64,000 nucleotides of DNA, taken from NCBI GenBank assembly GCA_013287475.1, contig JABDDT010000005.1, positions 1-64,000 on the forward strand, read 5' to 3'. How positions within the stretch are numbered: position 1 is the stretch's first letter; the number at the start of each line of letters is the position of its first letter. Position numbers and translations under genes: made by a program. Of the stretch, positions 3,007-19,824 are shown one piece after another. The notes beneath the pieces are model-generated. The model ran no database searches, was not told the origin of the DNA, and saw nothing but the letters and a program-made list of their open reading frames with translations. This stretch comes from Bacteroidota bacterium. GTDB lineage: Bacteria > Bacteroidota > Bacteroidia > Chitinophagales > Chitinophagaceae.

Positions 3007-4350
3007 ATGAAAATAGCCGTAGTTGGAACCGGATATGTTGGTCTAGTAACAGGAACTTGCTTTGCAGAAACCGGAAATGATGTTATATGTGTAGATATCG
3101 ACGCCCAAAAGATAAAAAAACTGAGTAACGGTGAAATTACAATTTATGAACCAGGACTGAATAAATTATTCTTAAGAAACCTGAAGGAAGAAAGACTGAC
3201 TTTCACGACAGATCTTGCTGCAGGAATTAAAGAGGCGGCAATTATTTTCCTTGCTCTGCCTACTCCACCCGGCGCCGATGGATCAGCCGATCTCAGGTTT
3301 GTTTTGGATGTTGCAGGGAAACTTGGAATGCTGATGAAAGAGTATAAAGTTATCATAGACAAGAGTACTGTACCGGTTGGAACTGCTGAGAAAGTGCATG
3401 ATGCAATAGCCAAAAATTTCAAAGGTGAATTCGACGTTGTTTCCAATCCGGAGTTTTTAAGGGAGGGCGTTGCGGTGGACGACTTTATGAAACCTGACAG
3501 GGTGGTGATTGGAACTTCTTCCGAAAGAGCCCGTAAAATTATGGAAGATCTTTATAATCCATTCGTACGGCAGGGTAATCCCATCATTTTTATGAATGAA
3601 AGATCCGCAGAACTCACCAAATATGCTGCAAATTCTTTCCTTGCAACCAAAATTACTTTTATGAATGAAATCGCCCAGCTTTGTGAGCGGCTTGGTGCAG
3701 ATGTAGATATGGTAAGGCGCGGAATCGGGAGTGATGAACGAATTGGTAAGAGATTCCTTTTCCCGGGTATCGGTTATGGAGGCAGCTGTTTCCCGAAAGA
3801 CGTACAGGCACTCGTGCAATCATCCAATGATGTTAATTACGAATTCAAGATCCTGAATGCAGTAATGGCGATCAATGAAAAACAAAAAATGCATCTTATC
3901 CCTAAAATAAAAAAATATTTTGACGGGAGTCTTAAAGGAAAACACTTTGCTTTGTGGGGTCTTGCTTTCAAACCCAATACAGATGATATTAGGGAAGCGC
4001 CGGCCTTGTATATTATTGAAGCACTAAGAAAAGAGGGCTGCACAATTTCCGTCTACGACCCTGAAGCTATGAATAATGTGAAAGCACAGATAGGAGATAT
4101 CGTAAAATACGGCGAGAATCAATATGATGTGCTTGAAAATGCGGATGCGCTAATCATTGCAACCGAATGGAATGAATTCCGAACACCCAATTTTTTGAAG
4201 ATGGTTACGTCAATGAAGAATAAAGTGATATTCGACGGAAGAAATCTTTTTGATATCAATGCGATTGGTGAGCTCGGTTTTTATTATGAAAGCATCGGAC
4301 GCGCGCCTGCAATTCCGGTAAACAGTTATCACTATAAAAAGAAAGCATGA
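3007..4350 (+). CDS. ugd: UDP-glucose 6-dehydrogenase
   Basis: Oxidises UDP-glucose to UDP-glucuronate with two NAD+. The 447 residues carry the N-terminal Rossmann motif [12 protein letters not shown], the central helix region and the catalytic Cys at about 261 in [14 protein letters not shown], followed by the C-terminal UDP-binding domain ([16 protein letters not shown]). Its stop overlaps the next gene by four bases (ATGA), so translation is probably coupled to the decarboxylase that consumes its product. The pair gives UDP-glucuronate and then UDP-xylose for polysaccharide. Confidence 0.95.
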
Positions 4351-5327
4351 GTAAAAAAAGAGTACTCATTACCGGCGCGGCCGGATTTTTAGGCTCACAC
4401 CTTTGTGACCGATTTGTCAAAGAAGGATATCATGTGATTGGTATGGATAATCTGATCACGGGAGATCTTCAAAATATCCAGCACCTTTTTAAACTGGAAC
4501 AATTTGAATTTTATCATCAGGACGTAAGCAAATACATTCACGTAGCTGGTCCGATTCATTACATATTGCATTTCGCTTCTCCGGCAAGTCCGATTGACTA
4601 CTTAAAAATTCCCATTCAAACGCTGAAAGTAGGTTCACTTGGAACCCACCACTGCCTTGGTTTAGCGAAAGCTAAAAATGCAAGAATACTTGTCGCATCC
4701 ACTTCAGAAATATATGGAGATCCGCTCGTGCACCCTCAACCTGAAGAATACTGGGGAAATGTAAATCCGGTCGGACCAAGAGGAGTTTATGATGAAGCAA
4801 AGAGATTCCAGGAAGCTATCACCATGGCTTATCATACCTTTCACAATCTTGAAACTCGCATAGTACGTATTTTTAATACCTACGGTCCGCGAATGAGACT
4901 AAATGATGGTCGGGCCCTCCCTGCATTTATAGGCCAGGCTCTCCGCGGAGAAGACCTGACAGTTTTCGGTGATGGAAGCCAGACCCGTTCCTTCTGCTAT
5001 GTGGATGATCTGATTGAAGGCATCTATCGTTTGCTGATGAGCGATTATGCTCTTCCGGTTAATATCGGCAATCCTTCTGAAATTACACTCAGGGACTTTG
5101 CGGAAGAGGTAATTGCACTTACAGGAACAGACCGGAAGATAATCTATAAACCCTTACCAGCTGATGATCCTAAACAACGTAAACCGGATATCAGTAAAGC
5201 AAAAAAAATATTACAATGGGAACCAAAAGTTGGCCGCAAAGAAGGACTCAAAATAACCTATGATTATTTCAAATCTCTGCCTCCGGAAGAATGGTTTAAA
5301 CAACCCAAGGAATTTAAAAGTGCATAA
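4347..5327 (+). CDS. UDP-glucuronate decarboxylase (UDP-xylose synthase), SDR family
   Basis: Extended short-chain dehydrogenase predicted to convert UDP-glucuronate to UDP-xylose. Seen: [13 protein letters not shown]-binding motif at the N-terminus, STSEIYGDP strand, YDEAKRFQE with the YxxxK pair, and [10 protein letters not shown], all typical of UXS. Length 326 matches the soluble bacterial form. It overlaps ugd by four bases, which supports the assignment over other SDR epimerases. The next gene, rfbB, begins 24 bases later. Confidence 0.88.
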
Positions 5328-5351
5328 ATTATTTGGAAATTTGATATTACT

Positions 5352-6413
5352 ATGAGTTCATACAAGAAAGTAATCCTGATTACCGGAGGCGCAGGATTTA
5401 TCGGATCGCATCTTGTGCGATTATTTGTAAATAAATATCCCCAATACCAGATCGTTAATCTGGACGCATTAACCTATGCAGGTAATCTGGAAAACCTGAG
5501 GGATATTGAATCCCTGCCAAATTATATTTTCGAGAAAGGTAATATTAATGACCAGGAAGCGATGTTTGCTTTGTTTGAAAAATATTCATTCGATGCCATC
5601 ATTCATCTGGCTGCCGAAAGTCATGTGGACCGTTCCATCTCAGAACCACTCGCTTTTGTAAAGACAAATGTGATGGGTACCTGCAATCTGCTTAATGTTA
5701 GCAGAAAAAAATGGAATCCAAACTGGGAAAGCAAACTTTTTTATCATGTTTCAACCGATGAAGTTTACGGATCGCTGGGAAAAGAAGGTTTATTTACAGA
5801 AACGACACCTTATGATCCGCGCTCGCCCTATTCTGCCTCAAAAGCCTCTTCCGACCATTTTGTTATGGCCTATCACCATACTTATGGTTTGCCCGTAATT
5901 GTTTCCAATTGCTCTAACAATTACGGCTCACATCATTTTCCGGAAAAACTGATACCGCTGATGATTATTAATATAAAAAATAATCAACCACTTCCGGTAT
6001 ATGGCAAGGGAGAAAATATTCGTGACTGGCTATATGTTGATGACCATGCTTCAGCCATTGATCTTATATTTCATAAAGGAACAACAGGTGGGAAATATAA
6101 TATTGGGGGCTTCAACGAATGGAAAAATATCGACCTTATCTATTTACTATGCGGAATTATGGATAAAAAACTGGGCAGAAAACCAGGTGATTCAGCCAAA
6201 CTTATCAGTTTTGTAAAAGACCGTCCTGGCCATGATATGCGTTATGCCATCGACGCAGGAAAATTACATCGTGAACTTGGATGGAAGCCTTCTCTCAGAT
6301 TTGAAGAAGGCCTGGAAAAAACTGTCGACTGGTACCTTGCAAATGAAAAATGGATTGAACAGGTTACCACTGGCGAATACCAGCATTATTATGAAAAACA
6401 ATACCATAAATAA
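5352..6413 (+). CDS. rfbB: dTDP-glucose 4,6-dehydratase
   Basis: Second step of dTDP-L-rhamnose synthesis: dTDP-glucose to dTDP-4-keto-6-deoxyglucose. 353 residues with GGAGFIGSHLVR, the STDEVYGSLG active-site strand (Asp/Glu pair) and YSASKASSDH (YxxxK). SNCSNNYGSHHFPEKLIP is diagnostic of this enzyme. rfbC starts on the last base of its stop codon. The partner rfbA (glucose-1-phosphate thymidylyltransferase) is not in the operon. Confidence 0.95.
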   Translation: MSSYKKVILITGGAGFIGSHLVRLFVNKYPQYQIVNLDALTYAGNLENLRDIESLPNYIFEKGNINDQEAMFALFEKYSFDAIIHLAAESHVDRSISEPLAFVKTNVMGTCNLLNVSRKKWNPNWESKLFYHVSTDEVYGSLGKEGLFTETTPYDPRSPYSASKASSDHFVMAYHHTYGLPVIVSNCSNNYGSHHFPEKLIPLMIINIKNNQPLPVYGKGENIRDWLYVDDHASAIDLIFHKGTTGGKYNIGGFNEWKNIDLIYLLCGIMDKKLGRKPGDSAKLISFVKDRPGHDMRYAIDAGKLHRELGWKPSLRFEEGLEKTVDWYLANEKWIEQVTTGEYQHYYEKQYHK

Positions 6414-6967
6414 TGGCATTCAAAGAAACTTTCTTACCCGGTGTTATAATATTTGAACCGGCTGTTTATCCGGACGAACGAGGATTTTTTTTTGAATCCT
6501 ATAACAAGAGGCTTTTTCTTTCCAATAATATTTCAAATGAATTTGTTCAGGATAACCAATCTTACTCGATCTACGGTGTAATACGAGGACTACATTATCA
6601 GAAAGAACCACATGCCCAGTCAAAACTAGTACGTGTTTTACAAGGCGAAATACTGGACGTAGTGCTCGATCTGCGTGTAGGATCACCTGGTTTTGGTAAA
6701 ACTTATGATGTTCGGTTATCTGCTGAAAATAAGAAACAGATATTTGTTCCCAAAGGCTTTGCCCATGGCTTTTCCGTGTTAAGCGAAACAGCTGTCATTT
6801 CTTATAAATGTGATCAGTTTTATAATAAACAAAGCGAGGCAGGTATCCGGTTTAATGATGCAATTTTGAATATTAACTGGCAGATCCCACCGGATAAAAC
6901 ACTAATCTCTGAAAAAGATACACAACTGCCGGCTTTTGATCCTTCCATTTCAGATTTTATTTTTTAA
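6413..6967 (+). CDS. rfbC: dTDP-4-dehydrorhamnose 3,5-epimerase
   Basis: Cupin-fold epimerase, third step of dTDP-rhamnose synthesis. 184 residues with IRGLHYQ (catalytic His), the RVLQGEILDVVLDLR strand and VPKGFAHGFSVLSE, all family hallmarks. Its start overlaps the rfbB stop by one base (TAATG) and rfbD begins four bases after its end, so the three are one translation unit. Confidence 0.95.
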   Translation: MAFKETFLPGVIIFEPAVYPDERGFFFESYNKRLFLSNNISNEFVQDNQSYSIYGVIRGLHYQKEPHAQSKLVRVLQGEILDVVLDLRVGSPGFGKTYDVRLSAENKKQIFVPKGFAHGFSVLSETAVISYKCDQFYNKQSEAGIRFNDAILNINWQIPPDKTLISEKDTQLPAFDPSISDFIF

Positions 6968-6971
6968 TCCG

Positions 6972-7853
6972 ATGCCCGAATTCCCAACATATCGCATAGC
7001 TGTAACCGGTAGTAATGGGCAGCTTGGAAAGGAATTTGTCCGGATTGCCACTCATCATCCCCGGTTTCAGTTTACATTTTTGACAAGGGAAGAATTTCCT
7101 TTGGATGATAATAAAAAAATAGAAACCTGGCTTAACCGGAATCCTGTTGACATTTTCATCCATTGTGCTGCTTACACGGCGGTTGACAAAGCAGAATCTG
7201 AAAAAGAAAAAGTATTCCGGATAAATACTTCTGCTTCAGGACTAATTGCCACGCAGCTTTCAAAAAACAAAACCCGGCTAATTTATATTTCTACTGACTA
7301 TGTTTTCGACGGAACCTCAGCTTCTCCACTAAACGAAAATGCAATAACAAATCCCGTAAATATATACGGTGCCTCTAAACTGGAAGGAGAACGTCTCGTT
7401 CTGCATAACAATCCATCCAGTCAGGTAATCCGTACTTCCTGGCTGTATTCCTCTTTTGGAAACAATTTTGTGAAGACGATGATACATTTGATGAGAGAAC
7501 GGGACTCCATACGTGTTGTGGATGATCAGAAAGGATCACCCACTTATGCCGGCGATCTGGCAGGCGCCTTAATGCAAATGCTTGAATCGGATCATTTCAT
7601 ACCAGGTATTTATCATTATAGTAATGAAGGAGAAACGACATGGTACAAATTTGCTGAAGAAATAAAAAAATTAACCGATAGTAAATGTCAGATTATACCC
7701 ATTCCAACTTCGGGTTATCCGACGCCGGCAAAACGTCCTGCCTATTCCCTTATGGATAAATCAAAAATTAAAAAAGACTATGGACTTCAGATTCCTGCAT
7801 GGCAAACCAGTTTGGCTTACTGTATTGAACTATTAAAAAAACAGGGAGTGTAA
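6972..7853 (+). CDS. rfbD: dTDP-4-dehydrorhamnose reductase
   Basis: NADPH-dependent final step giving dTDP-L-rhamnose. The protein starts MPEFPTYRIAVTGSNGQLG from the ATG at 6972, four bases after rfbC. An upstream in-frame ATG at 6936 would overlap rfbC and is less likely. 293 residues with the Rossmann GxxGxxG motif, STDYVFDG and YGASKLEGE (YxxxK). Last gene of the operon. It converges with a small membrane protein gene after 26 bases. Confidence 0.93.
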   Translation: MPEFPTYRIAVTGSNGQLGKEFVRIATHHPRFQFTFLTREEFPLDDNKKIETWLNRNPVDIFIHCAAYTAVDKAESEKEKVFRINTSASGLIATQLSKNKTRLIYISTDYVFDGTSASPLNENAITNPVNIYGASKLEGERLVLHNNPSSQVIRTSWLYSSFGNNFVKTMIHLMRERDSIRVVDDQKGSPTYAGDLAGALMQMLESDHFIPGIYHYSNEGETTWYKFAEEIKKLTDSKCQIIPIPTSGYPTPAKRPAYSLMDKSKIKKDYGLQIPAWQTSLAYCIELLKKQGV

Positions 7854-7879
7854 AATTTGTAATAAATATCAGATTTAAA

Positions 7880-8140
7880 TTACTTGGCTAATTTGGTTTG
7901 TTTCATACTGTCGGGCTTTAATCCGATTACTGGTGTTTCACTTTCATTTTCATGAATTCCATAAAGCAATTCCTCATTTAATTCCAGTACATCCCTTTGC
8001 AAGCCGTAAATTTCGTGGGTAAGTTTCTTAACTTTTTTCATACCGATCAGGTAGCCTGTAGAAAAGATAAAAAGACCGGCAATCACCACATCCAGCATAT
8101 TTAACTGAATGGCTCTAAGCAAATCAATAACAGTTTCCAT
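7880..8140 (-). CDS. Small single-pass membrane protein, unknown function
   Basis: 86 residues. A short amphipathic N-terminus is followed by one hydrophobic helix (about 18-33, DVVIAGLFIFSTGYLIG), then a charged region with heptad-like Leu/Glu spacing (about 35-62, possible coiled coil) and a Pro/Lys-rich tail. It looks like a membrane-anchored cytoplasmic protein. No family recognised. It stands alone between rfbD and tRNA-Gln, so context gives no clue. The coding call rests on its intact length and plausible composition. Confidence 0.6.
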   Translation of the reverse strand: METVIDLLRAIQLNMLDVVIAGLFIFSTGYLIGMKKVKKLTHEIYGLQRDVLELNEELLYGIHENESETPVIGLKPDSMKQTKLAK

Positions 8141-8426
8141 AAATTTAATTTTAAACAGGATTGGATTAAATACCCTTTAAAAGTACCCCTCGGAACCCAG
8201 ATCTACAACGTAAAAGACCTCCATTTATCAATCGTATTTTTACGGATCGTTCATTGAAATAACGCTTTTTCAATTCCAAGTTATTAAAAATCAGCTGTTT
8301 AAGATCCATTCATTTTTGACTGCTATATAAGAGAGGTTAAACTTTAGCTGGCGGCTGATTTTAATTTGGAGTTATCATATTTCGGATTTTCAGCCAGAAT
8401 AAAGGCCCCTCATGGTTTTAAATAGT
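8141..8426. other. Intergenic stretch without a recognisable gene
   Basis: AT-rich spacer between the small membrane protein and the tRNA-Gln terminator. I see no open frame of convincing composition, repeat or RNA structure in it. Confidence 0.5.
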
Positions 8427-8455
8427 AAGGCCCCATATTGAGAATATGGGGCCTT
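8427..8455 (-). terminator. Intrinsic terminator hairpin of tRNA-Gln
   Basis: Perfect 13-bp stem AAGGCCCCATATT (8427-8439) / AATATGGGGCCTT (8443-8455) with a three-base loop, two bases downstream of tRNA-Gln on the minus strand. The following minus-strand sequence is T-rich (ACTATTTAAA) but not a run. Confidence 0.7.
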
Positions 8456-8457
8456 TG

Positions 8458-8528
8458 TTGCCTGACCTGGATTCGAACCAAGACAAACAGAGTCAGAGTC
8501 TGTCGTACTACCGTTATACTATCAGGCA
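8458..8528 (-). tRNA. tRNA-Gln (anticodon CTG)
   Basis: Folds as a 71-nt cloverleaf: acceptor TGCCTGA/TCAGGCA with discriminator A, anticodon stem ACAGA/TCTGT around the loop CTCTGAC (anticodon CTG, codon CAG), and a T arm with GGTTCGAATCC. CCA is not encoded. A TATCTTTG -7 box lies upstream and a strong hairpin downstream, so it is its own transcription unit. Confidence 0.93.
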
Positions 8529-8567
8529 GTTTGCTGATAAAGAATTAATTTCCTTTATTTTCGGCTG

Positions 8568-8575
8568 CAAAGATA
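8568..8575 (-). promoter_or_regulatory. -7 promoter box of tRNA-Gln(CTG)
   Basis: TATCTTTG on the minus strand, a perfect TAnnTTTG match, 39 bases before the tRNA 5' end. Confidence 0.6.
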
Positions 8576-8745
8576 ACTTAGAGACCACACAACAGGGAAA
8601 AAGAATACCATCAAATAAGTGATTTATTATCGAAATTTATGCAAGTTGTATATAATTGATTATCAATATTATATTTTAAAAAGCATATTCTATTGCGGAA
8701 TCCTGTAATACGTGTTACATATTTTCAATCAGCAGTTACTAATCT

Positions 8746-9351
8746 ATGTATAGGAAAAACAGATTTTCAGATTCTGATCTGGTAGCAGCAATACTTAAGA
8801 AAGACTTATTAGAACAGGCCATATGGCAGCTCTACCAGGATCACGCTGAAATCACCAGATCTTTTATTATTGGAAAAGGCGGAACAGAGCAGGACGCAGA
8901 TGACATTTTTCAGGAAACAATCGTATCGTTTATTGAATGCGTTCAAAAAGGAAAATTCAGACAGGAATCTGGCGTCAGAACCTTCCTGATTTCAATATCA
9001 AAAAACATTTGGTATAATGAAATCAGAAGAAGGCAAAGGGCAGGTAATCGCGAACAAATTTTTGAAATGGATCGCGATCAGGAAGAGGGACCAGTTACAG
9101 AATTGATAAATGACCGCGAAATGAAAAAACAATTGAATTTGTTACTTCAGGATCTCGGTGAATCCTGCAAAAAAATTCTGGAGCTATTTTATTATGAGAA
9201 TTTGTCTATGAAAGAAATTGTTTCTCAGATGCACTACGAAAATGAACAGGTAGTCAGAAACAAAAAGTATAAGTGCCTGCAGCAATTAGCAGATAAAATA
9301 AAGCAAAATCCGCTGGCAGTAAAACAAATAAATGAATTGATATCTAAATAA
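8746..9351 (+). CDS. ECF-type RNA polymerase sigma factor
   Basis: 201-residue sigma-70 family protein with only regions 2 and 4. Region 2: EQDADDIFQETIVSFIECV, then RTFLISISKNIWYNEIRRRQR (2.4-like). Region 4: LLQDLGESCKKILELFYYENLSMKEIVSQMHY helix-turn-helix. An acidic linker (DRDQEEGPVTELINDRE) joins them. The downstream gene, four bases away, encodes a one-pass membrane protein with the build of an anti-sigma factor. A convergent gene encodes a periplasmic TPR-CHAT protease. The promoter it recognises is not evident from this sequence. Confidence 0.88.
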   Translation: MYRKNRFSDSDLVAAILKKDLLEQAIWQLYQDHAEITRSFIIGKGGTEQDADDIFQETIVSFIECVQKGKFRQESGVRTFLISISKNIWYNEIRRRQRAGNREQIFEMDRDQEEGPVTELINDREMKKQLNLLLQDLGESCKKILELFYYENLSMKEIVSQMHYENEQVVRNKKYKCLQQLADKIKQNPLAVKQINELISK

Positions 9352-9355
9352 AATC

Positions 9356-10105
9356 ATGGAACCGAATAAAGAAATATTAATTGATTATCTGGACCATCAA
9401 CTGAATCTGCAAGATACTGATCAGGTTGAAATCATGGTACAGAATGATAAATCTCTTGCAGACGAATTGCAATATCTGAATATGGCGATTGACACAGTTC
9501 GCCTGAATTCTATCAATGATAAAGTATTATCAATTCGGAAATCACTTCCATATACATCAGCTCTGACTGAAAAACCAGCAAATAACAGGATTCGCAGCAT
9601 ATACAAAATGAGTATGCGGGCTGCCGCTATATTTATACTACTCATAGGAATTGCAGTTTTGTATAAATATTTTACTGTAAGTAGCCCGTCCGTTTATGAA
9701 AAACAATTTACCAGTTATGAGTTAAGCAATTTGAGAGGACAGGAATCACACGACTCAGAAGATGAAGCGTACCAAAATAAAAACTGGAATGAGGTTTTAA
9801 CTATTTTTCAAAAAGGAAATAATAAATCCAATAAGTCAGTATTCCTGGCCGCTATGGCTGAAATGCAATTAAGCAATTTTCCACAGGCTGTTTCACTTTT
9901 CGAAAACATACTGAATAATACACGAGATAACACTTTCCGTGAAGAATCAGAATACTATTTATCACTTGCTTACCTGATGAATCATGAAATAAATAAAAGT
10001 ATCAGATTAATTAATAAAATGAAAGCGGATACCAGTCATACATATCATCCATTGGCCATAAAATTGTCTTCTATTGATCTGAAAATCATAGAGTTAAAAA
10101 AATAA
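9356..10105 (+). CDS. Membrane TPR protein, probable anti-sigma factor
   Basis: 249 residues starting four bases after the sigma gene, so co-translated. An N-terminal acidic helical domain (1-60, ILIDYLDHQLNLQD..) resembles the sigma-binding part of anti-sigma factors, without the zinc-binding His/Cys set. One membrane helix spans about 89-106, preceded by Arg/Lys (N-terminus inside). The C-terminal ~130 residues have TPR-like helices (NKNWNEVLTIFQKG, LSNFPQAVSLFENIL, HEINKSIRLINKM) predicted to lie in the periplasm. Inference: it holds the sigma factor at the membrane, and its periplasmic TPRs sense or bind a partner, possibly the neighbouring TPR-CHAT protein. It could instead be an unrelated TPR membrane protein. 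Confidence 0.7.
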   Translation: MEPNKEILIDYLDHQLNLQDTDQVEIMVQNDKSLADELQYLNMAIDTVRLNSINDKVLSIRKSLPYTSALTEKPANNRIRSIYKMSMRAAAIFILLIGIAVLYKYFTVSSPSVYEKQFTSYELSNLRGQESHDSEDEAYQNKNWNEVLTIFQKGNNKSNKSVFLAAMAEMQLSNFPQAVSLFENILNNTRDNTFREESEYYLSLAYLMNHEINKSIRLINKMKADTSHTYHPLAIKLSSIDLKIIELKK

Positions 10106-10346
10106 AAAAAAGAAGTTACAACCGAAGAAGCGGCGGTTACTAAATATAACAAAGATTAAATCCACTAAGTCATGAAAACCAATAAGAATCCCGTACACCT
10201 TTGAAAACCAAATCCTGAAAAATCAATAAATCCTTTAACCATTGAAAATTTTCTGATCAAATCCCATGAAGAATCCAGTCCAATCCGATGAAATTCAAAA
10301 TCAAAGTCGACGTATCCCTGAAAACACTGAGTAAGTTTAGACAACG

Positions 10347-13160
10347 TTATTTTAAAATTCCAATATTAGCTGTGAAAGGCGTCGACTTTTTTTTCATTCT
10401 TTTTCCAATCAAGAAAAATACAATTGTGCCAAATGCTATTACGAAAGCAGTCCAAATCCAGGGCTGTTTTTTTTTGTATAAACTTCCTGGATCGCCTGTA
10501 AGAATAATATGAGACCAAAAAGCAGGATCCCGGTTCACCGGATTATTTTTGATGAAATCTATTTTGGCTTTTTGCAAAGCCTGTGATTTTGAATATCCCG
10601 CTTCCAGGTATTTATAGAAAATCCTGAATATCTCCGAAGTTGAGTGGTCGTCTGCTTTCCAAAGCGTATTGATGGTACTTGGACATCCAGCATATAAAAA
10701 GGCTCGGGCAAAACTCATTACACCTTCATTTTTAATATACTCTCCCCTTCCGGTTTCACAAGCACTGATTACCATTAATTCGCAGCTGTCCAGTCTGAGC
10801 GAATATATTTCATCCAGAAAAAGAAAATCTTCTGATCGTATACCAGTCGCTGGAAAAAATGCAATATAGGATGCGGATGGATTATCCATGTCAGTGATTG
10901 CATGCGTTGCAAGGTGTACTATTGGACAACTGTTCAGGTTTTTAATGAATTCCTTTTTACTTGCATTCTGATTTTCAAAACGCCGCCCTTTCAACCCGGA
11001 AATCTCTTCTTTTGAATAGGGTAATTTCTCAAGCCAGCCCATTCCTTCAGCTTTCAAATCGGCTCCCTTTTGAGAAAAAGGAGCAAAAGAAAGTACAGGA
11101 TCCTGTACTTCCTGAATATTAAAATATCTGCGATTCTCAACAATAAACCTTGCTGAAAATTCATAGCTGATCGTATGTTTTTCAAGAATCAGGCTGCCAT
11201 CCATATCCCCTTGTAAAGATTCAAATGGAAGAAGAAAAAGAAGCCCGTCAGGAATGATAATCCATTCATCTTTATTTCCTGCCAAACTGATTACAGGTTT
11301 CATGAATTGTATATAAAGGTTCTCTTTTAATCGGTTTGTGTTAACATGCCTGCCACCTTCCGATGTTTGAAGAATCCGGATCCAGGAAATTATATTGCGA
11401 CGAATTGCTTCACCACTATCCAGTTCAATCAGATGGAAAGAGGAATTTGTCAGTACAAATACTTCTATTTTTTCAGAGGTATTATAAAAACTTATTAACG
11501 ATTGATCGGATCCAATGGATTTCTGCAATTGTTCAATGGCCGGAAAATCATCCGAATACTTTAATTGATAAAACCTGTTATCTCCTTCCATTTTCCGGCG
11601 CAGGTTTATTAGTTGAATTTCATAAGCCGATTTTTCATTGTTTATTTTTTGCAATGCCTGCGCATTCACCTCCTCTTCTGCCTTAGAGTTCAGTCGCGCT
11701 ATATTGAATTTAATATTCCTTTCCTGACCCGCAACGTCATTTCCAGTCCTAACGGAAAGTAAAAAACTCCGTTCCCTGAGCTGAGCATTCATTACGGAGG
11801 CTTTATTTTTTTCAGTGATTAGAAACGCAGATTCTTCGTATCCTGTATTTGGGAATAATTTATTTAATTCAAGACAAACAATAAGTGCATTCGTATAAAC
11901 CTCGCTGCTTTTTTGTTTAAGAAGTATCTTGGCATCGTCCATTTCATAGCTTCTTTCAATGTATGAAAGGAATGAAATGGTCGATTGATAAGAATCGTAA
12001 GCAGATTTAAGATCATCGGGATTGGAAGTTCTTTTATATTCCATCTCCCAGGCAGACGCTTTCTTAACCAACACTTCAAACAACCTGTAATAGGCAAAAG
12101 ACCCTGTAAAATTTCCCGGGTTTTTATGTATGTCCTTATCAGTAAAATTTCCAGAAAAAATGATCAGCGATTTCTGAAAATGCCTCAAAGCTGATTCTGG
12201 CTGATTATTAAAAATATCCAGGTCCCCGGAGTATAGTTCATTTACCCCATCATCCAATGAATTGCTGCGAATAGATTTTTTTTCACGCTGATATTGGTTT
12301 AGCCATGCTGAAGCTGAATCGGGATTACCCGTTTCCAATGCCGTCCTTGCCATTTCATTTAGTACCCCGGGTATGGCTCTGACCTTTACTTTTTTGAATG
12401 AAGCCAGGGCTTCGGTATATTGATGTAATCCTGCATAAGCCCTTCCCATATTCATGTATAATGGATCCGGCAATAGTTGGAATTTCAGAATTTTTCTATA
12501 CAGGATGAGCGCCTGTTCAAATAACCCCAATTTATAAAAACAGGTCGCCATATTCAGTTGTAAACTATAAACAAAATCATCTGATGGATTTTTAGCTTCA
12601 ATCAGCTGTAGCGCCTGGTTGAAATAATTTTTACTCTGCAAATAGTTTCCATTATCATAATAAAGAACTCCCAGGGTATTATACAGTCGGATACGATCTT
12701 CAAATGATCCCCACTCCCCCGGACTTTCTTCCGCACGTAAAAGAAAATAACTCGCTGAATCAAAATTGTTGAGGTTATAATAGCCAGAACCACTTAATAC
12801 ATTTAAACTGAATCGTTTTCCCGAATCAGAAGTATATTTCATCGCCTGTAAATAAGAACTGGTTGCCCTGGCATAATCTTTATTAACATCACACATTATA
12901 CCCAGTTTATAATTGGCCTGGTAAAGGAGGCTGTCAATGAATACGGAGCGGGATATACTGTTCAATTCATAAATGACTTCATTGAAACCCGCAATGCATA
13001 CACTATCCTTTAAAGGAGAATTATTGGAAGAATAGAAAAGTCGATCAGCCCTGTTATATTTGGACAATATCGATTTCAATACAGGAGAACCTGGGGAATA
13101 TTGTTTAAATGAATAAATCATCAGGAAAGAGAGGAGTACTAAAAAAACTTTCCCGGACAT
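10347..13160 (-). CDS. Periplasmic TPR-CHAT caspase-like protease with C-terminal membrane anchor
   Basis: 937 residues. N-terminal signal peptide (about 1-18), then tandem TPR-type repeats to about residue 330 (for example GVLYYDNGNYLQSKNYFNQAL, MNMGRAYAGLHQYTEALASF; the first is split here by position only), a helical linker, and a C-terminal CHAT domain. The CHAT His is at 753 (VHLATHA) and the Cys at 801 (VISACETGRGE), so the caspase/separase-type dyad is intact. A C-terminal helix (about 900-919) ends in a basic tail, giving TPR and CHAT domains outside and the tail inside the inner membrane. Known relatives: CHAT proteases include the TPR-CHAT Csx29 of type III-E CRISPR, which acts on a sigma-factor inhibitor. 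Convergent with the sigma/anti-sigma pair. Its start codon lies within a terminator-like hairpin. Confidence 0.88.
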   Translation of the reverse strand: MSGKVFLVLLSFLMIYSFKQYSPGSPVLKSILSKYNRADRLFYSSNNSPLKDSVCIAGFNEVIYELNSISRSVFIDSLLYQANYKLGIMCDVNKDYARATSSYLQAMKYTSDSGKRFSLNVLSGSGYYNLNNFDSASYFLLRAEESPGEWGSFEDRIRLYNTLGVLYYDNGNYLQSKNYFNQALQLIEAKNPSDDFVYSLQLNMATCFYKLGLFEQALILYRKILKFQLLPDPLYMNMGRAYAGLHQYTEALASFKKVKVRAIPGVLNEMARTALETGNPDSASAWLNQYQREKKSIRSNSLDDGVNELYSGDLDIFNNQPESALRHFQKSLIIFSGNFTDKDIHKNPGNFTGSFAYYRLFEVLVKKASAWEMEYKRTSNPDDLKSAYDSYQSTISFLSYIERSYEMDDAKILLKQKSSEVYTNALIVCLELNKLFPNTGYEESAFLITEKNKASVMNAQLRERSFLLSVRTGNDVAGQERNIKFNIARLNSKAEEEVNAQALQKINNEKSAYEIQLINLRRKMEGDNRFYQLKYSDDFPAIEQLQKSIGSDQSLISFYNTSEKIEVFVLTNSSFHLIELDSGEAIRRNIISWIRILQTSEGGRHVNTNRLKENLYIQFMKPVISLAGNKDEWIIIPDGLLFLLPFESLQGDMDGSLILEKHTISYEFSARFIVENRRYFNIQEVQDPVLSFAPFSQKGADLKAEGMGWLEKLPYSKEEISGLKGRRFENQNASKKEFIKNLNSCPIVHLATHAITDMDNPSASYIAFFPATGIRSEDFLFLDEIYSLRLDSCELMVISACETGRGEYIKNEGVMSFARAFLYAGCPSTINTLWKADDHSTSEIFRIFYKYLEAGYSKSQALQKAKIDFIKNNPVNRDPAFWSHIILTGDPGSLYKKKQPWIWTAFVIAFGTIVFFLIGKRMKKKSTPFTANIGILK

Positions 13161-13226: not shown

Positions 13227-14132
13227 TTAATTATTATCCCTGACAATAATGATGAGTGGTGGCCTGGGTGAAGGACCCTTGCTCAACAACAAATTATCCA
13301 GCGTATTCACGAGACTACTGGTAATTGAACCAAGTAACCCGCCGGATATATCGGACCTATGATTGTAAAAAACGATTTGCAACCCGATCTTCTGGTTTGC
13401 GTAATTACTATTATCATTCAACCAATAATAGACTGTTGTATTTATGGTTGTACCGTTTATTGGAAGCAGGCCAAACAGGCTGTTTTTCATTGTCTTTTTC
13501 AAATCAATAAATCCTGTTTTCTGATCTATTACTACTCCCTGATTCTTTGCAAAATTATTGTAGTCAAAATCACATCCTTGTCCCTGATTAGTTAAACAGG
13601 GTGCAGGCCAGTTGGGATTGGCGTTGTAATAAGGTTTTGCAATGGTATCACCTAAGGACAGCACGTAAACACTATCCATATATGCCGCACCGGCAACAAT
13701 CAATTGGGACATACAAGTGTCTGTCGTACCATTTTGCACAAAGGCAACATCAAACCGTTCGCCGGTTTCTGATTTGGTCAGATCAATAGCGCCTGTTTTG
13801 GAATCCAAAACCAGTCCGGCAGGCCATGATAAATAAGTTCCCAGAATACCTTGGTTGTTCTGGGGATACACAAAATAGTCGCCGTTAGTGTTGGGCTGCG
13901 GATAAACGATAGAATCTCCATAGTTCGGCGCAAAATTACATCCCTGAACCGGACTGACCGGATAAGGAACAGGTGGCGGCAGCGGCGTAGTTGCCTGCGT
14001 TGTGTCGTGCGGTGGAGTAATTACATTCGTACCCGTATCCGGGTTAGTAGGAACGACTGATTTTTTACATGCTGTTGCACATAAAAAAGTTACTAGCAGG
14101 ATCAATGAACCTTTGTATAGATTTTGTTTCAT
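13227..14132 (-). CDS. Lipoprotein with two related beta-type modules, unknown function
   Basis: 301 residues with a lipoprotein signal peptide (VTFLCATAC, lipid-modified Cys 22), a Pro/Thr-rich spacer (about 28-60), then two similar halves, each with a GC(N/D)F segment and a DxKTG(A/F)IDL(T/K)K motif, suggesting an internal duplication of an Ig/cadherin-like module. The C-terminus (PRPPLIIIVRDNN) is hydrophobic and basic. Probably anchored in the outer membrane. It lies between PorP/SprF and the CHAT gene on the same strand, so a role at the cell surface with the PKD protein is possible. No known function. Confidence 0.75.
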   Translation of the reverse strand: MKQNLYKGSLILLVTFLCATACKKSVVPTNPDTGTNVITPPHDTTQATTPLPPPVPYPVSPVQGCNFAPNYGDSIVYPQPNTNGDYFVYPQNNQGILGTYLSWPAGLVLDSKTGAIDLTKSETGERFDVAFVQNGTTDTCMSQLIVAGAAYMDSVYVLSLGDTIAKPYYNANPNWPAPCLTNQGQGCDFDYNNFAKNQGVVIDQKTGFIDLKKTMKNSLFGLLPINGTTINTTVYYWLNDNSNYANQKIGLQIVFYNHRSDISGGLLGSITSSLVNTLDNLLLSKGPSPRPPLIIIVRDNN

Positions 14133-14281: not shown

Positions 14282-15325
14282 CTAAAACCTTGGACACTGC
14301 ACTTCATTCCGGGAGGTCCCATCCGCCGGTTTCTTAAATATATAAATCAGGGAGATTTCAAATCCACCCTGGGCCTGAGAAGCCACTTTAAACCCTGATA
14401 TGTTGACATCATAACTTATTCCAAGGTTAAAACTTCCATAATCCATTCCTACATAAGGAATAATAGCATCAGAAACATTGTTTGCCCGGGCCCATGCGCC
14501 GAAATAAACATTCGCTACTTTGTTATCATCATTGGTTGCAGTTATTTCCAACGCACCTCCAAATACCAATTCACTGGCAGTTGACTGCTTATTATATAAA
14601 GCACTTACATACCATGTTTTCCCTGTACTCGGGGATGGGAAATATCCACCTCCATGAATTGTAAGCCTCGTTGGTATGGTGATATTATCTACGCCAAGGA
14701 ATGATTCTTTTGGCTGATTGATATGATACATGGCAACACCAAAATATACTTCATTGTTTCCATCGAGTGAACCGTTGTATAAAGCACCTGCATTCATATC
14801 GAAATAATTTGCAGCCACTACCTGAAGATTAACCGGTTCAGTTGCTGAGGGAAGCCAGGTCCCGTCAATTTGAAGTCCATCCAGAAAGTGCAGCCTCGGT
14901 CCATCCAGTATTCTATTTGCATAGGTTCCCTGGAAACCCACACCGATCGTTTGTAATCCATTTTCGTCAATGGTTTTGTGGTATGCAGTTGAAAGTGCAA
15001 AATAATTGCTTGTCAATATTCCATTTGCTGTTTTATCCGTCATAGCCATCATGCCGAGACCCCATCGGTCACCTTCAGGCATTCCATTTTGGAATATGGG
15101 CAGATCTACTGATATGGTTGAAGTAACATATGCCTGGTTTATTGTTGGCCATTGATCCCTGTAATTCCCCGCAACGCGAAGATCCCCATTGAATTTACCT
15201 GTTAACGCCGGATTCAGTGTAAGCGGAGAAGCAAAAAATTGAGAAAAATGAGGGTCCTGCGCAGAAACCACGTCAATTATTAGAAACAGTAAAATGAAAA
15301 CATGAAATAGTTTTTTCATTGTCAT
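14282..15325 (-). CDS. PorP/SprF-family T9SS outer-membrane protein
   Basis: Beta-barrel partner of T9SS substrates with a type B sorting domain. From the ATG at 15323-15325 it has 347 residues: signal peptide ending VVSA, then QDPHFSQFFASPLTLNPALTGKF, the family's hallmark start of the mature protein, followed by amphipathic strands and a C-terminal ISLIYIFKK. A start further upstream would overlap the previous gene. It begins 11 bases after the giant PKD gene, the usual substrate-SprF pairing, and probably helps export or attach that protein. Confidence 0.9.
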   Translation of the reverse strand: MTMKKLFHVFILLFLIIDVVSAQDPHFSQFFASPLTLNPALTGKFNGDLRVAGNYRDQWPTINQAYVTSTISVDLPIFQNGMPEGDRWGLGMMAMTDKTANGILTSNYFALSTAYHKTIDENGLQTIGVGFQGTYANRILDGPRLHFLDGLQIDGTWLPSATEPVNLQVVAANYFDMNAGALYNGSLDGNNEVYFGVAMYHINQPKESFLGVDNITIPTRLTIHGGGYFPSPSTGKTWYVSALYNKQSTASELVFGGALEITATNDDNKVANVYFGAWARANNVSDAIIPYVGMDYGSFNLGISYDVNISGFKVASQAQGGFEISLIYIFKKPADGTSRNEVQCPRF

Positions 15326-15336
15326 TTCTATTGCAC

Positions 15337-18300
15337 TTATCTCAATAATTCTACCGTACCCTTTAACACAAAATTTTCTCCTGTAAAACATATCATCTCT
15401 GTAACATATACATAGGTATCGGCGGGCTGTTGAATTCCATTCAGATTTCCGTCCCAGCCATATTTTTTATCATTCGGTGGAAAGTCCGTCCTTGAATATA
15501 AGAGCTGACCCCACCTTGAATAAACCTGGAAGGACTTGACCACTTTGACACCGCTTCCGGTTGGATAGAAATAATCGTTATTTCCATCACCATTCGGACT
15601 GAATGCATTCGCCATATACACACCACTCTGTAAGCAGAGTAATCGTATGTTTACTGAAGTACTGGATGTACACCCCGCAGCGGTGGTTACCGTGACCGTA
15701 TAAGTAGTTGGCGCGAGCGGTGTACTAACCGGCGAAGCGCAATCAGTACAACTCAAATAAGTAGGAGGAGACCAGGCCCATGATACAACATCAGCACTCA
15801 CGGTTGGATCAATCTGAACATCCGATCCTGCTAGAACAGGTTCTGGTGGCGGAATCGTAACTACCGGAAGTGAATCCACCGTAACCTTAATATTTGCAGT
15901 ATCCAGGAAACATTTGTATTTATCTTCTCCTATAACCGTATAATCTGTTGTGACCGTAGGACGAGCAATTACACTATCACCAATTTTGGTATTCAGTGTA
16001 TTAGCTGGCGACCAATTATAATTGAATGCGCCGCCGGACTGAAGGATTGCAAGTCCTCCTATACATATGGTAGTATCCGGAGAATGTTGCATGGGGAAAG
16101 GACCGATGACATGTATTGAATCGTAAGCCATCGCTGTACAACCAACCGGAGATGTTACCTGCAATGCCGTTACAAAATCACCCGGAGTGGTATAAACAAA
16201 TGTCGGATTCAGAATATTTGAAGTATCCCCTGCTGCTCCGGTTCCAAAATCCCAATGATAAGTCAGTGGATATCCCAGTGTATCTGCAACAAAACTTACA
16301 ACATGCGGACCGTATGAAATGGAACCTGTACCACATAGTGTAACCGGAGGACCCAGAGCTGCAAACAGCGTGTCCATCAATATCTGATGATCTGATTTAT
16401 AAGACATCTGACATCCGGTTGAATCCGTAAGAATGAGAGCTGGTGTAAATAAACCAGGTAAAATATATGTATGAACCGCTATTGAATCCTGTGTTGTTAT
16501 TACCGTTCCGTCTCCAAAATCCCAGGTATATGATCCGATATAACTTGCAGTAGCATGTAATGTATCAGTTGCAGGTACACAGGCCTGATCGAGCGTGGAA
16601 TAGAGTTTTGCGAATGGTCCCTTCACAATAATTGTATCATAGGAGATAACTGAAATACCATTTGCACCATATCCGGTTAGAGAGACGATATATGTACCAG
16701 GGATATCATATTCATATTTTGGAGTGATCTTGTTATCTGCAGTCCCCTTTCCATCTCCAAAATCCCAATGCAAACCCGTAGTATTTACCGGATAAGCTGT
16801 AAAATTTACAAACAAAGGCGGGCAACTGGAGTTATTGTAGTAATAAGATGAATCTGTAAATGGTGCAGAAATTGTTTGTATTTGTAAAGGCTGAACAAGA
16901 GAATCGATGCATGTCCCGGCCATTGTCGGAAAAGCAATCAGTGTAACCGTATCCGTTCCTACATTCGGAAATGTAACTACTATGGAATCAGGATTTGTAA
17001 AAGTTGCGCCACTTCCTGAAATGCGCCAAAGATAATTTACCCCTGTATTTTTAACTGAAGTGTTATAAAATGTAATGGGAAATCCCGGCGTAATAGCTGT
17101 CGGTTTCCAGTAAAAATTCGCCTTGGCACCATAAACTAAGACCTGGGTGATCGAAAGTTTTGCAGTTGCTTTACAACCATTCGAATCAGTCACCGTTAAC
17201 TGAGGATTATAAGTTCCTGGAAGAGCATACATATGTTGTACTGTGTCACCTGTGGGTATTGTGACCGAATTTCCATCCCCGAAATTCCATTGCCATAAAA
17301 TAATTGGTACGCCATTGACCGGCTGAGAAGAATCAGTAAAGATTACAGGCGCATGATAACAAAGTTGGTTTTCGTCTCCGAATTTTGCAACCGGACCTAT
17401 AATATGAATCGGTATATAATTGCTCGTATCATAGCATCCAAAAAATCCGGATTTAATTATAACCCGAATGCTATCCTTTCCGGCAATCAGACCAGAAACA
17501 TTTCCTGCAAATGAATTTTTAATATTGGTACCCCCGGAAGGATTAAATAATGTACCATCGTTATACTGCCATTTATAAATATTATAGTAAGTATTTGATC
17601 CTGCAGATTTTCGCTGGTAATTCGTATCCAGTCCGTTGATAACAACCGGAAGCGTGGAGCTTGCGCAAATTGTATCCTTTGTTGAACTTAATACCGGGCT
17701 CTGTTTAGAAAGTACATATACAGGTACAGGTCCGGTTGTTTGAATACATGTTCCATATGTTACTGTAACCGATGCCGCATATACACCACCTTTCGGATAG
17801 TGATGATTTTTTGTGGGTATATAAACATAATCTGTATCATTCGGTGACCCGTCCCCATAACTCCATATGTATTGCGATCCACCAGGAGGGGCAACTGTTA
17901 GCGCAACACTCAACCGGTCACTGTCACAGTTATTCACTATTGTAAGTGTAGGTATAGGAGTCGTTTTTACATAACGGGTGATCGTGGAAGTATCGTTTTT
18001 ACAGCCAGGGCTGGAAGCAATCAGCGTCATATTATAAGAACCGGAATCCTGGTACAGGTGCGTATGATAAATATTATTATTGACATCCGATTTGCCGTCT
18101 CCGTAAAACCAGGTGAACTTTGCTGCACTATCATCCAGGTTATGAAATGTTTCCAATTGATTGGTTGCGCAGGGTAATGAATCCAGTGCATTAAAAATTG
18201 CATGTGGTTTAGGATAAACGATAATAGTGTCGGATGGAAATGCGCCGCCGGAACATCCATGTATCGTTGTAAAACTCAGGTTGATAATATAGGTTCCAGG

Positions 18301-19824
18301 TATTGAAAAAACATGCACCGGATTTGGACTTGCAGAAGTTGTTCCATCTCCGAATGACCAGAAATAGGTTGCCAGTGTATCCTGGGAAATTGCAGTAAAC
18401 GTTGCCTGCACATCTGCACAATAAATCGCTGAGGGAATTAAGGTTGTATCAGCATGTATCTTTGCTGTTGGTTGTGCTGTATTAAAAGTTTCAGATATGG
18501 TTGAAGAACAACCATTGGAATTGACAATGGTAAGTGTCGGGGAAAACAAATTATTTGTCAGATAGGTAAAACTTGGATTTTGTAAATCAGAAGTGTCACC
18601 AGGATTACCGGTAAAATTCCAATGCCAGTTTGTAGCGCCCGAACTGGTGTCGGCGAAATTAACCGTCATTGGCGAAGAACAGCTGGTTCCTTTGTTAATT
18701 ATAAAAGGGCTGATATTCGGAGCTGCCAATACATTAATTATTTTTGTAACGGTATCGGGACAGGATCCAAAATTTTCATACATCGAAACCGTATATGCAC
18801 CCGCTGCGGCATAACTGTGACCATAGGTAATACCTATTCCACTTCCGCCGTCACCGAAAGTCCAGATTGGATTTGCACTTGGCGCAGGAGTGCTTTTGTT
18901 TATGAAAAGAATGGTATTTCCTGGGCAGTATGCAAAGTTTGTAGTAAAATCTGCATTGTAATTGGCCGCGTTGATCAATGCGGGTTTGGTAATCGTCGAA
19001 GAACAACCATAGGTATTTGAAACGACTAAACTGATATCATAATTCCCCTTTGTTGCATAAAGATGTGAGGGGTTAGTTTGTGTATTCGTACCTCCATCGC
19101 CGAATGTCCACAAATAACTTAAAGCGCCGGCACCTGTTGATGTATTATGAAATAACACAGGCTGATTCAGACTACATATGGCTGTTGAATCAACAAAAAA
19201 AGATGGAGACAATGCCGGGTAAACAGTCACCATATCCTGAATCTTAAAAGTGTTTATACAACCAAAACTATTTGTTGCAGTCAGGCTGACTGTATAAGTG
19301 CCGGGAAACTGATAAATATTGGAAACCGTACCTGATGTTGTGTTTTGCGAATTTCCATCTCCAAAATTCCAGATGGCTCCTGTAATGGTTCCGTCACCCG
19401 CGCTTAAAGTACTCGAAAAATCAACCAGCAGCGGTGAACATCCCACAGTATGATCAGCCGTGAAATTTATTGCAGGTTTTTTATAAACAGTTATATTCTT
19501 GGAAATGGTAGCTGTTTTGCCTCCATCGTTGATGGTTAGCGTAACCGTATATATCTGGCCTATGAAATAGGTCGCTGAGACCGGATTATTTTTTACGTTT
19601 GTAGTAATTCCGTTACCGTTACCGAAAATCCAGGTGTAGGTCGCTGTTGCGCTTGTGCCTGTCGAATTATTCGTAAAACTTACTGTTAAAGGTGAACAAC
19701 CGGAATTTACACTGGGTGTAAAATCAGCCACAAGCTGGGCCATTACAGGAGTTTTACCCGACAGCAATAAAATAATTGCCAACAGATAATATGATTTTCT
19801 ACCTGGAATAGTTCTCAGGGGCAT
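15337..19824 (-). CDS. Giant PKD-repeat surface protein with T9SS type B C-terminal sorting domain
   Basis: 1495 residues: signal peptide (ends VMA), then about a dozen PKD-like Ig modules recognised by W-x-FGDG variants (AIWNFGDGNSQ, YLWTFGDGGTN, YFWSFGDGTTS, YTWDFGDGTVI and others) along most of the chain, and a C-terminal ~90-residue gliding/CHU_C sorting domain (NAFSPNGDGNNDYFYP ... VYSRWGQLLYS ... GTVELLR). Exported through T9SS and anchored at the cell surface, probably as an adhesin or matrix protein. No catalytic domain is visible between repeats. PorP/SprF follows after 11 bases. The repeats differ too much for recent slippage. Confidence 0.92.
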   Translation of the reverse strand: MPLRTIPGRKSYYLLAIILLLSGKTPVMAQLVADFTPSVNSGCSPLTVSFTNNSTGTSATATYTWIFGNGNGITTNVKNNPVSATYFIGQIYTVTLTINDGGKTATISKNITVYKKPAINFTADHTVGCSPLLVDFSSTLSAGDGTITGAIWNFGDGNSQNTTSGTVSNIYQFPGTYTVSLTATNSFGCINTFKIQDMVTVYPALSPSFFVDSTAICSLNQPVLFHNTSTGAGALSYLWTFGDGGTNTQTNPSHLYATKGNYDISLVVSNTYGCSSTITKPALINAANYNADFTTNFAYCPGNTILFINKSTPAPSANPIWTFGDGGSGIGITYGHSYAAAGAYTVSMYENFGSCPDTVTKIINVLAAPNISPFIINKGTSCSSPMTVNFADTSSGATNWHWNFTGNPGDTSDLQNPSFTYLTNNLFSPTLTIVNSNGCSSTISETFNTAQPTAKIHADTTLIPSAIYCADVQATFTAISQDTLATYFWSFGDGTTSASPNPVHVFSIPGTYIINLSFTTIHGCSGGAFPSDTIIVYPKPHAIFNALDSLPCATNQLETFHNLDDSAAKFTWFYGDGKSDVNNNIYHTHLYQDSGSYNMTLIASSPGCKNDTSTITRYVKTTPIPTLTIVNNCDSDRLSVALTVAPPGGSQYIWSYGDGSPNDTDYVYIPTKNHHYPKGGVYAASVTVTYGTCIQTTGPVPVYVLSKQSPVLSSTKDTICASSTLPVVINGLDTNYQRKSAGSNTYYNIYKWQYNDGTLFNPSGGTNIKNSFAGNVSGLIAGKDSIRVIIKSGFFGCYDTSNYIPIHIIGPVAKFGDENQLCYHAPVIFTDSSQPVNGVPIILWQWNFGDGNSVTIPTGDTVQHMYALPGTYNPQLTVTDSNGCKATAKLSITQVLVYGAKANFYWKPTAITPGFPITFYNTSVKNTGVNYLWRISGSGATFTNPDSIVVTFPNVGTDTVTLIAFPTMAGTCIDSLVQPLQIQTISAPFTDSSYYYNNSSCPPLFVNFTAYPVNTTGLHWDFGDGKGTADNKITPKYEYDIPGTYIVSLTGYGANGISVISYDTIIVKGPFAKLYSTLDQACVPATDTLHATASYIGSYTWDFGDGTVITTQDSIAVHTYILPGLFTPALILTDSTGCQMSYKSDHQILMDTLFAALGPPVTLCGTGSISYGPHVVSFVADTLGYPLTYHWDFGTGAAGDTSNILNPTFVYTTPGDFVTALQVTSPVGCTAMAYDSIHVIGPFPMQHSPDTTICIGGLAILQSGGAFNYNWSPANTLNTKIGDSVIARPTVTTDYTVIGEDKYKCFLDTANIKVTVDSLPVVTIPPPEPVLAGSDVQIDPTVSADVVSWAWSPPTYLSCTDCASPVSTPLAPTTYTVTVTTAAGCTSSTSVNIRLLCLQSGVYMANAFSPNGDGNNDYFYPTGSGVKVVKSFQVYSRWGQLLYSRTDFPPNDKKYGWDGNLNGIQQPADTYVYVTEMICFTGENFVLKGTVELLR

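Follow-up and report, generated by a model that had tools for sequence, protein, structure and literature searches.

Regulated proteolysis of a membrane-bound anti-sigma factor is known as a two-step process from the DegS/RseA/RseP pathway. Control of a sigma inhibitor by a CHAT protease is also already known, from type III-E CRISPR (Craspase), and DdvA of Myxococcus xanthus represents a fused form of it. In the passages of PMC10028731 that deal with the CRISPR system, and which also name DegS/RseA/RseP-type proteolysis, Csx29 is described as cutting Csx30, the inhibitor of an extracytoplasmic function (ECF)-like sigma factor, within a small flexible loop, the cut falling between residues 427 and 429 and deletion of M427 stopping cleavage. 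DdvA is presented, in part of PMC4374960, as the anti-sigma factor of the ECF factor DdvS, its signal being given there as unknown, and separase is described as cleaving with specificity for Arg at P1, the residue before the cut (passages of PMC12609080 and PMC4626109). Here we analyse a stretch of 64,000 nucleotides (the window) from a Bacteroidota bacterium of the Chitinophagaceae (assembly GCA_013287475.1, contig JABDDT010000005.1, positions 1-64,000), in which genes for an ECF sigma factor, a putative anti-sigma factor and a protease with tetratricopeptide repeats (TPRs) and a CHAT domain are neighbours.

We consider it likely, reading from sequence, that these genes form a proteolytic switch outside CRISPR, in which the CHAT protein would act as an Arg-specific site-1 protease of the putative anti-sigma factor, a one-pass TPR membrane protein for which we use the working name ASF. 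The initial annotation had reported the three genes, with the TPR-CHAT gene convergent with the other two, and a catalytic pair His753/Cys801; the genes were recovered at the coordinates below, and both residues are exactly placed and invariant in 175 of 175 aligned CHATs. To these we add a lipoprotein gene (13227-14132) and an Arg in the ASF linker, Arg127. The sigma and ASF genes are separated by 4 bases. The features concerned are:

8746..9351, plus strand: ECF sigma factor, 201 residues (open reading frame and domain models)
9356..10105, plus strand: ASF, 249 residues, with a helical N-terminus predicted to be cytoplasmic, one transmembrane segment (helix 78-107) and TPRs predicted to be periplasmic
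9734..9736, plus strand: codon of ASF Arg127 in the predicted periplasmic linker, candidate P1 residue (alignment and covariation)
10347..13160, minus strand: TPR-CHAT protease, 937 residues, with an N-terminal hydrophobic stretch and a C-terminal membrane anchor
10647..10649, minus strand: codon of Asp838, candidate S1 acid where helix 838-853 begins (model and covariation)
10758..10760, minus strand: codon of the catalytic Cys801 (aligned CHATs)
10902..10904, minus strand: codon of the catalytic His753 (aligned CHATs)
11004..11006, minus strand: codon of Glu719, candidate S1 acid (structure model and covariation)

The residue at the Arg127 place of ASF varies together with residues around the CHAT active site. 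Of 131 aligned ASFs, 97 have Arg at this place, 21 Met and 5 Lys, and 8 have none of the three (a 40-sequence conservation table, with Arg in 37 of 40, omitted most Met-type loci beforehand, and no rate was taken from it). The motif R[GSDNT] appears in 97 of the 125 linker windows; when these windows were shuffled 1000 times, the mean count was 45 and the highest 61. Linkers were typed by one alignment-based rule applied to ASF alone, blind to CHAT and with no fixes by hand, which was itself settled after the Arg/Met pattern had been noticed. By this rule the 111 ASF-CHAT pairs, containing 110 different CHATs, divide into 83 Arg-type, 19 Met-type, 5 Lys-type and 4 unclassified (the duplicates L088 = L035 and L091 = L056 were retained in the pair, topology, promoter and co-occurrence counts). 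CHAT residue 719 is Glu in 82 of the 83 Arg-type pairs and acidic in none of the 19 Met-type pairs; Asp838 occurs in 82 of the former and 2 of the latter. When all 789 CHAT columns were ranked by how well they separate the linker types, 719 came first, 751 (two residues before His753) second, 395 third, 838 fourth and 842 ninth. Positions 719 and 838, located with the help of the predicted secondary structure and published descriptions, appear to match places reported to bind the P1 Arg in related proteases. This pattern suggests that CHAT cuts ASF at the conserved linker Arg: the proposal of the initial annotation that CHAT cleaves ASF gains from the covariation of the linker with 719, 751 and 838, and its placing of the cut in the TPR domain gives way to the linker. 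Two finer assignments were set aside. The exact equivalence of Asp838 to D2070 of human separase is doubtful, since the latter presumably lies nearer CHAT column 842; and the residue after Cys801 was dropped as a specificity determinant because Glu occurs there with Arg- and Met-type linkers alike.

The domain matches and models are in keeping with these roles. The CHAT protein matches PF12770 at 160.7 bits (cut-off 24), together with TPRs. Its model (mean predicted local distance difference test score 84.9, predicted template modelling score 0.82, 26 sequences) shows a strand at 689-693, a helix at 716-720, a strand at 747-750 preceding His753, a strand at 795-798 preceding Cys801, a strand at 828-832, the helix 838-853 and a C-terminal helix at 901-921. 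The analogy with Csx29 drawn in the initial annotation is supported by structure: among the chains ranked highest by Foldseek, to which the comparison was limited, the best match is Csx29 in its complex with Csx30 (8eey_B, Z 31.8, 448 residues, root mean square deviation 3.9), with Chaetomium separase (5fc2, Z 27.5, deviation 2.9 over 304 residues) and Myxococcus DdvA (8rot, Z 22.2) also found. A sequence search of the PDB with the full CHAT alignment gave TPR proteins in the 60 matches listed, and the CHAT part was therefore searched alone, which gave separase at E values of 0.67 to 0.94 and no better. The sigma factor matches Sigma70_r2 at 35 bits (cut-off 24) and the NCBIfam sigma70-ECF model at 68 bits (cut-off 42.9), the Pfam region 4 models scoring below cut-off. 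For ASF, the AlphaFold2 model (mean 91.3 on the same local score) shows a helical N-terminus, the long helix 78-107 containing the transmembrane segment, a coil of lower confidence at 118-133, in which R127 sits just before the TPRs, and TPR-like helices. TPR matches of the window ASF fall below the Pfam cut-off, TPR_2 is matched in 32 of 34 relatives, and a fold search with the model gave no match at E <=0.001, the rows listed being TPR proteins.

Protease and the TPRs of the proposed substrate are predicted to lie on the same side of the membrane. Topology was called from hydropathy and charge only. An N-terminal hydrophobic stretch and a C-terminal transmembrane segment are both present in 125 of 167 CHAT open reading frames (the N-terminal stretch alone in 21, the C-terminal segment alone in 18, neither in 3), and in the 143 with the C-terminal segment, positive charge is greater on its tail side in 130 and smaller there in 7. 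The ASF transmembrane segment is clear in 123 of 127 open reading frames, its N side being more positive in 115 and less positive in 4. Because of these hydrophobic stretches and charge asymmetries, the whole CHAT protein and the ASF TPRs are both predicted to be periplasmic, as the initial annotation had held, and not with a CHAT domain in the cytoplasm.

The association of these genes extends well beyond this genome. A family-level CHAT search gave matches in 78 of 117 genomes, often through the TPRs alone; full-length relatives above 250 bits, a limit chosen after noticing a gap between 258.8 and 165.6, are found in 24 of the 117. In 41 family loci (40 picked from the better matches, hence not random, plus the window), ASF lies within 7 kb of CHAT in 35, with a sigma gene also in 33 and the lipoprotein gene in 24, and CHAT and ASF are convergent in 23 of the 35 and on the same strand in 12. 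A second set, from named genomes, was made up of the best 80 of 571 relatives, 79 of them with a CHAT open reading frame above 300 bits; here ASF lies within 7 kb in 46, a sigma gene in the same 46 and the lipoprotein gene in 15, the 46 loci being convergent in 29, divergent in 12 and same-strand in 5. These loci are mostly from several families of Bacteroidota; Balneolota, Acidobacteriota and KSB1 likewise contribute CHAT matches. Two draws of genomes were made without regard to CHAT (the first of 118 genomes, the second consisting of further ASF matches of a 158-genome draw), and in these CHAT lies within 7 kb of the ASF match in 18 of 27 and 16 of 32 cases, respectively. Of the 14 genomes in the first draw that have a strong ASF match, 12 contain a CHAT (E 1e-25), versus 35 of the 104 others (Fisher p 0.0003, not corrected for kinship). 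Co-occurrence across Bacteroidota, which the initial annotation had made one test of its proposal, is borne out in both locus sets and both draws.

The lipoprotein gene belongs to the same set: of the 117 genomes, those that carry it are precisely the 24 with this CHAT clade (>250 bits), including two (G058 and G070) where it lies far from CHAT. It and a possible regulatory element are placed as follows:

13227..14132, minus strand: conserved lipoprotein, 301 residues, with an invariant Cys22, upstream of CHAT on the same strand
13257..13265, minus strand: Arg-Pro-Pro, residues 290-292, near the lipoprotein C-terminus
8714..8742, plus strand: promoter-like dyad GTTACA ... TTACTAA preceding the sigma gene (pattern match)

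The protein has a lipobox-like start, with Cys22 invariant in 23 of 23 aligned sequences, and no Pfam match at E 0.1. Arg-Pro-Pro followed by a mostly hydrophobic stretch ends all 40 lipoproteins above 60 bits (two of them duplicates). An Arg before Pro should resist cutting. Human securin offers a comparison, since its pseudosubstrate, according to a passage of PMC6858450, carries Pro after the P1 place, and by analogy we hypothesize that the Arg-Pro-Pro tail inhibits CHAT. The dyad, GTTAC-N14-19-[TG]AC..A, was counted in the very upstream regions that had served to define the pattern. It precedes 19 of 49 sigma genes in the higher-scoring group, compared with none of 29 in the lower-scoring group, and 13 of the 37 lipoprotein genes, whereas for other open reading frames the figure is 25 of 861. 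We infer from these counts that the sigma factor may regulate its own synthesis.

Put together, the proposed switch would work as follows. The cytoplasmic helical N-terminus of ASF would tether the sigma factor to the inner membrane, the TPRs of ASF lying in the periplasm alongside the C-terminally anchored TPR-CHAT protease of separase/Csx29 fold. Upon an envelope signal, CHAT would cut the ASF linker after Arg127 (site 1), and a general site-2 protease, for which an M50 match is present in the genome of the window, would clear the membrane stub and so free the sigma factor. This in turn may raise its own operon and, in about one third of relatives, the lipoprotein-CHAT operon as well, with the lipoprotein probably controlling CHAT through its Arg-Pro-Pro tail. 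More tentatively, the arrangement could be a counterpart of separase-securin, in which the tail would be an uncuttable pseudosubstrate that a signal removes, whereupon CHAT would cut at R127 and release the sigma factor, cleavage site and enzyme having changed together from Arg to Met in at least two lineages; we regard this elaboration as possible but doubtful.

Several observations weigh against a switch of this kind: (i) ASF is not near CHAT in 33 of the 79 named loci and 6 of the 41 family loci, nor CHAT near the ASF match in 9 of 27 and 16 of 32 cases in the two draws. Ten ASF matches lacking a nearby CHAT, too small a sample to serve as a test, comprise six with the Arg motif (L184, L186-L190), a single one with Met (L185), two with neither (L191 and L192, the two genomes lacking CHAT at E 1e-25) and one too truncated to be classed (L193). 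(ii) The covariation has exceptions: one Arg-type pair has Gly719 (L085) and another Asn838 (L090), two Met-type CHATs retain Asp838, and the four unclassified linkers are paired with CHATs that yet have both acids. The five Lys-type pairs are mixed, with both acids in two, Met or Val at 719 with Glu838 in two, and a gap at 719 with Glu838 in the fifth. (iii) Independent switches are few. On a CHAT tree built leaving out columns 719, 751, 838 and 842, the minimum number of changes is 2 for Arg/Met and 6 for Arg versus Met or Lys, with 5 losses of the 719 acid (a gap counted as loss) and 7 of Asp838, and an independent-pairs sign test cannot reach 0.05. (iv) The anti-sigma role of ASF is deduced from its position, its shape and weak zf-HC2 matches (5 of 34 relatives, best E 0.0016). 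(v) The lipoprotein gene of the window has no dyad upstream. (vi) Csx29, which is the closest enzyme known, does not read P1 strictly, because alanine scanning of Csx30 finds no essential single residue and it is loop length that matters (passages of PMC10028731).

An alternative is that CHAT is an output, the sigma factor driving a periplasmic Arg-specific protease that acts on other envelope proteins while another protease inactivates ASF. The dyad before both sigma and lipoprotein genes would suit this, as would the convergent orientation in 23 of 35 family loci, because of which CHAT is transcribed apart from ASF; the same-strand order in the other 12 and the joint change of the ASF linker residue with CHAT 719, 751 and 838 are left unexplained by it, and we judge it unlikely. 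Alternatively, CHAT could be a scaffold or sensor that binds the ASF TPRs and does not cut, R127 being structural. R127 does directly precede the TPRs, and DdvA (8rot, Z 22.2), in which anti-sigma and TPR-CHAT parts are combined in a single protein, shows that a sensor may include a CHAT part, but His and Cys are conserved throughout the 175 CHATs, and R127 lies in a coil of lower confidence where its exchange tracks the CHAT active-site columns, which makes this reading quite improbable. That the covariation merely reflects the shared ancestry of a few clades, as the two sufficient Arg/Met changes, the powerless sign test and other type-separating columns (e.g. 395 and 59) would allow, is very improbable given that the columns ranked 1, 2 and 4 of 789 surround the active site and two of these fall where P1 binding has been reported for the fold, that the two Met clades differ in part at 719 (S/A/F versus G/A/L), and that a Lys clade (L198, L203) has also lost the 719 acid.

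The wider survey gave further observations on these genes. The Lys-linker pairs L198:3289-4089 with 6261-9053 and L203:8095-8901 with 3246-5996, with Met or Val at 719 and Glu838, possibly represent a third specificity. Besides the Arg-type set of the window, the same genome has a Met-clade CHAT with Ser at 719 (contig C57), a sigma-ASF pair with a Met linker that is unlinked to it (contig C3) and a shortened Arg-type ASF relative with no sigma or CHAT match adjoining (L184:6083-6742, contig C10). Genomes G230 and G294, with at least 14 and at least 13 CHAT matches and 12 and 7 ASF matches, may have expanded such circuits. A tblastn search of plasmids returned 128 records with CHAT matches, every one below 60% identity. 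Met-clade loci can have a subtilase-like gene before CHAT (L066:3711-5096, L067:10218-11606, L069:4042-5469, L003:2902-4302), PF00082 being over cut-off in L066 and L003, the two tested, and 9 loci encode another secreted protein close to ASF and CHAT (e.g. L041:10471-11316), the one tested matching DUF4382. In the window itself, a tRNA-Gln gene (ctg; 8457-8528, minus strand) lies upstream of the sigma promoter region, and at 14282-19824, upstream of the lipoprotein gene, a PorP/SprF-like protein is encoded together with a large protein of PKD repeats, both named by sequence appearance, which resemble a type IX secretion cargo pair.

If the proposed switch is real, many Bacteroidota CHAT genes acquire a testable role in a conserved CHAT-sigma circuit outside CRISPR, for which both the cut site and the specificity pocket are predicted and Arg-to-Met exchanges occur in nature; such a circuit would offer a caspase-fold alternative to DegS-type signalling and hint at where the CRISPR version (Csx29-Csx30-sigma) may have come from. 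Within the open-licence literature searched, no title or abstract start describes a sigma-ASF-CHAT module, PMC10028731 is the one paper to contain both 'CHAT domain' and 'extracytoplasmic function', and no paper was found on the CHAT part of DdvA. PADLOC defence models gave no match for the sigma factor, CHAT or the lipoprotein, and one weak match in the ASF TPRs (Cas2_IIIb, E 0.011).

Compared with the described systems, the locus shows both similarities and differences: (i) It shares with Csx29-Csx30-CASP-sigma a TPR-CHAT protease and an ECF-like sigma factor. Unlike Craspase, however, the set in the window has no Cas7-11 or guide RNA, the CHAT protein is predicted to be periplasmic and membrane-anchored, and the inhibitor would be a TPR membrane protein; Csx29 also lacks equivalents of Glu719 and Asp838 in a profile alignment that is loose there. 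A search of the assembly, which is 74% complete, gave no match to RAMP or Cas1, and window positions 1-30000 contain no direct repeats of >=22 bases spaced within 120 bases, which agrees with the initial annotation that CRISPR is not involved. (ii) DdvA (8rot, 8rw5) is likewise a transmembrane anti-sigma factor with a TPR-CHAT part, but in one chain, whereas ASF and CHAT are separate genes and CHAT has its own anchor. (iii) In separase-securin the protease has a similar fold (5fc2), but the system is eukaryotic and lacks a sigma factor, and we do not claim that the lipoprotein is a homologue of securin. (iv) The EACC2-caspase systems with an ECF sigma factor and a TPR protein (PMC8195603) and the sigma-linked metacaspase operons of Myxococcus (PMC3501461) also place a caspase-fold protease near sigma genes, but with other caspase families and partners, and no membrane anti-sigma substrate appears in the passages of these sources that describe them. 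(v) With DegS/RseA/RseP the proposed switch would share the two-step logic, the membrane anti-sigma factor and, through the match in the same genome, a site-2-type protease; the site-1 enzyme DegS is a PDZ serine protease, whereas here it would be a caspase-fold cysteine protease.

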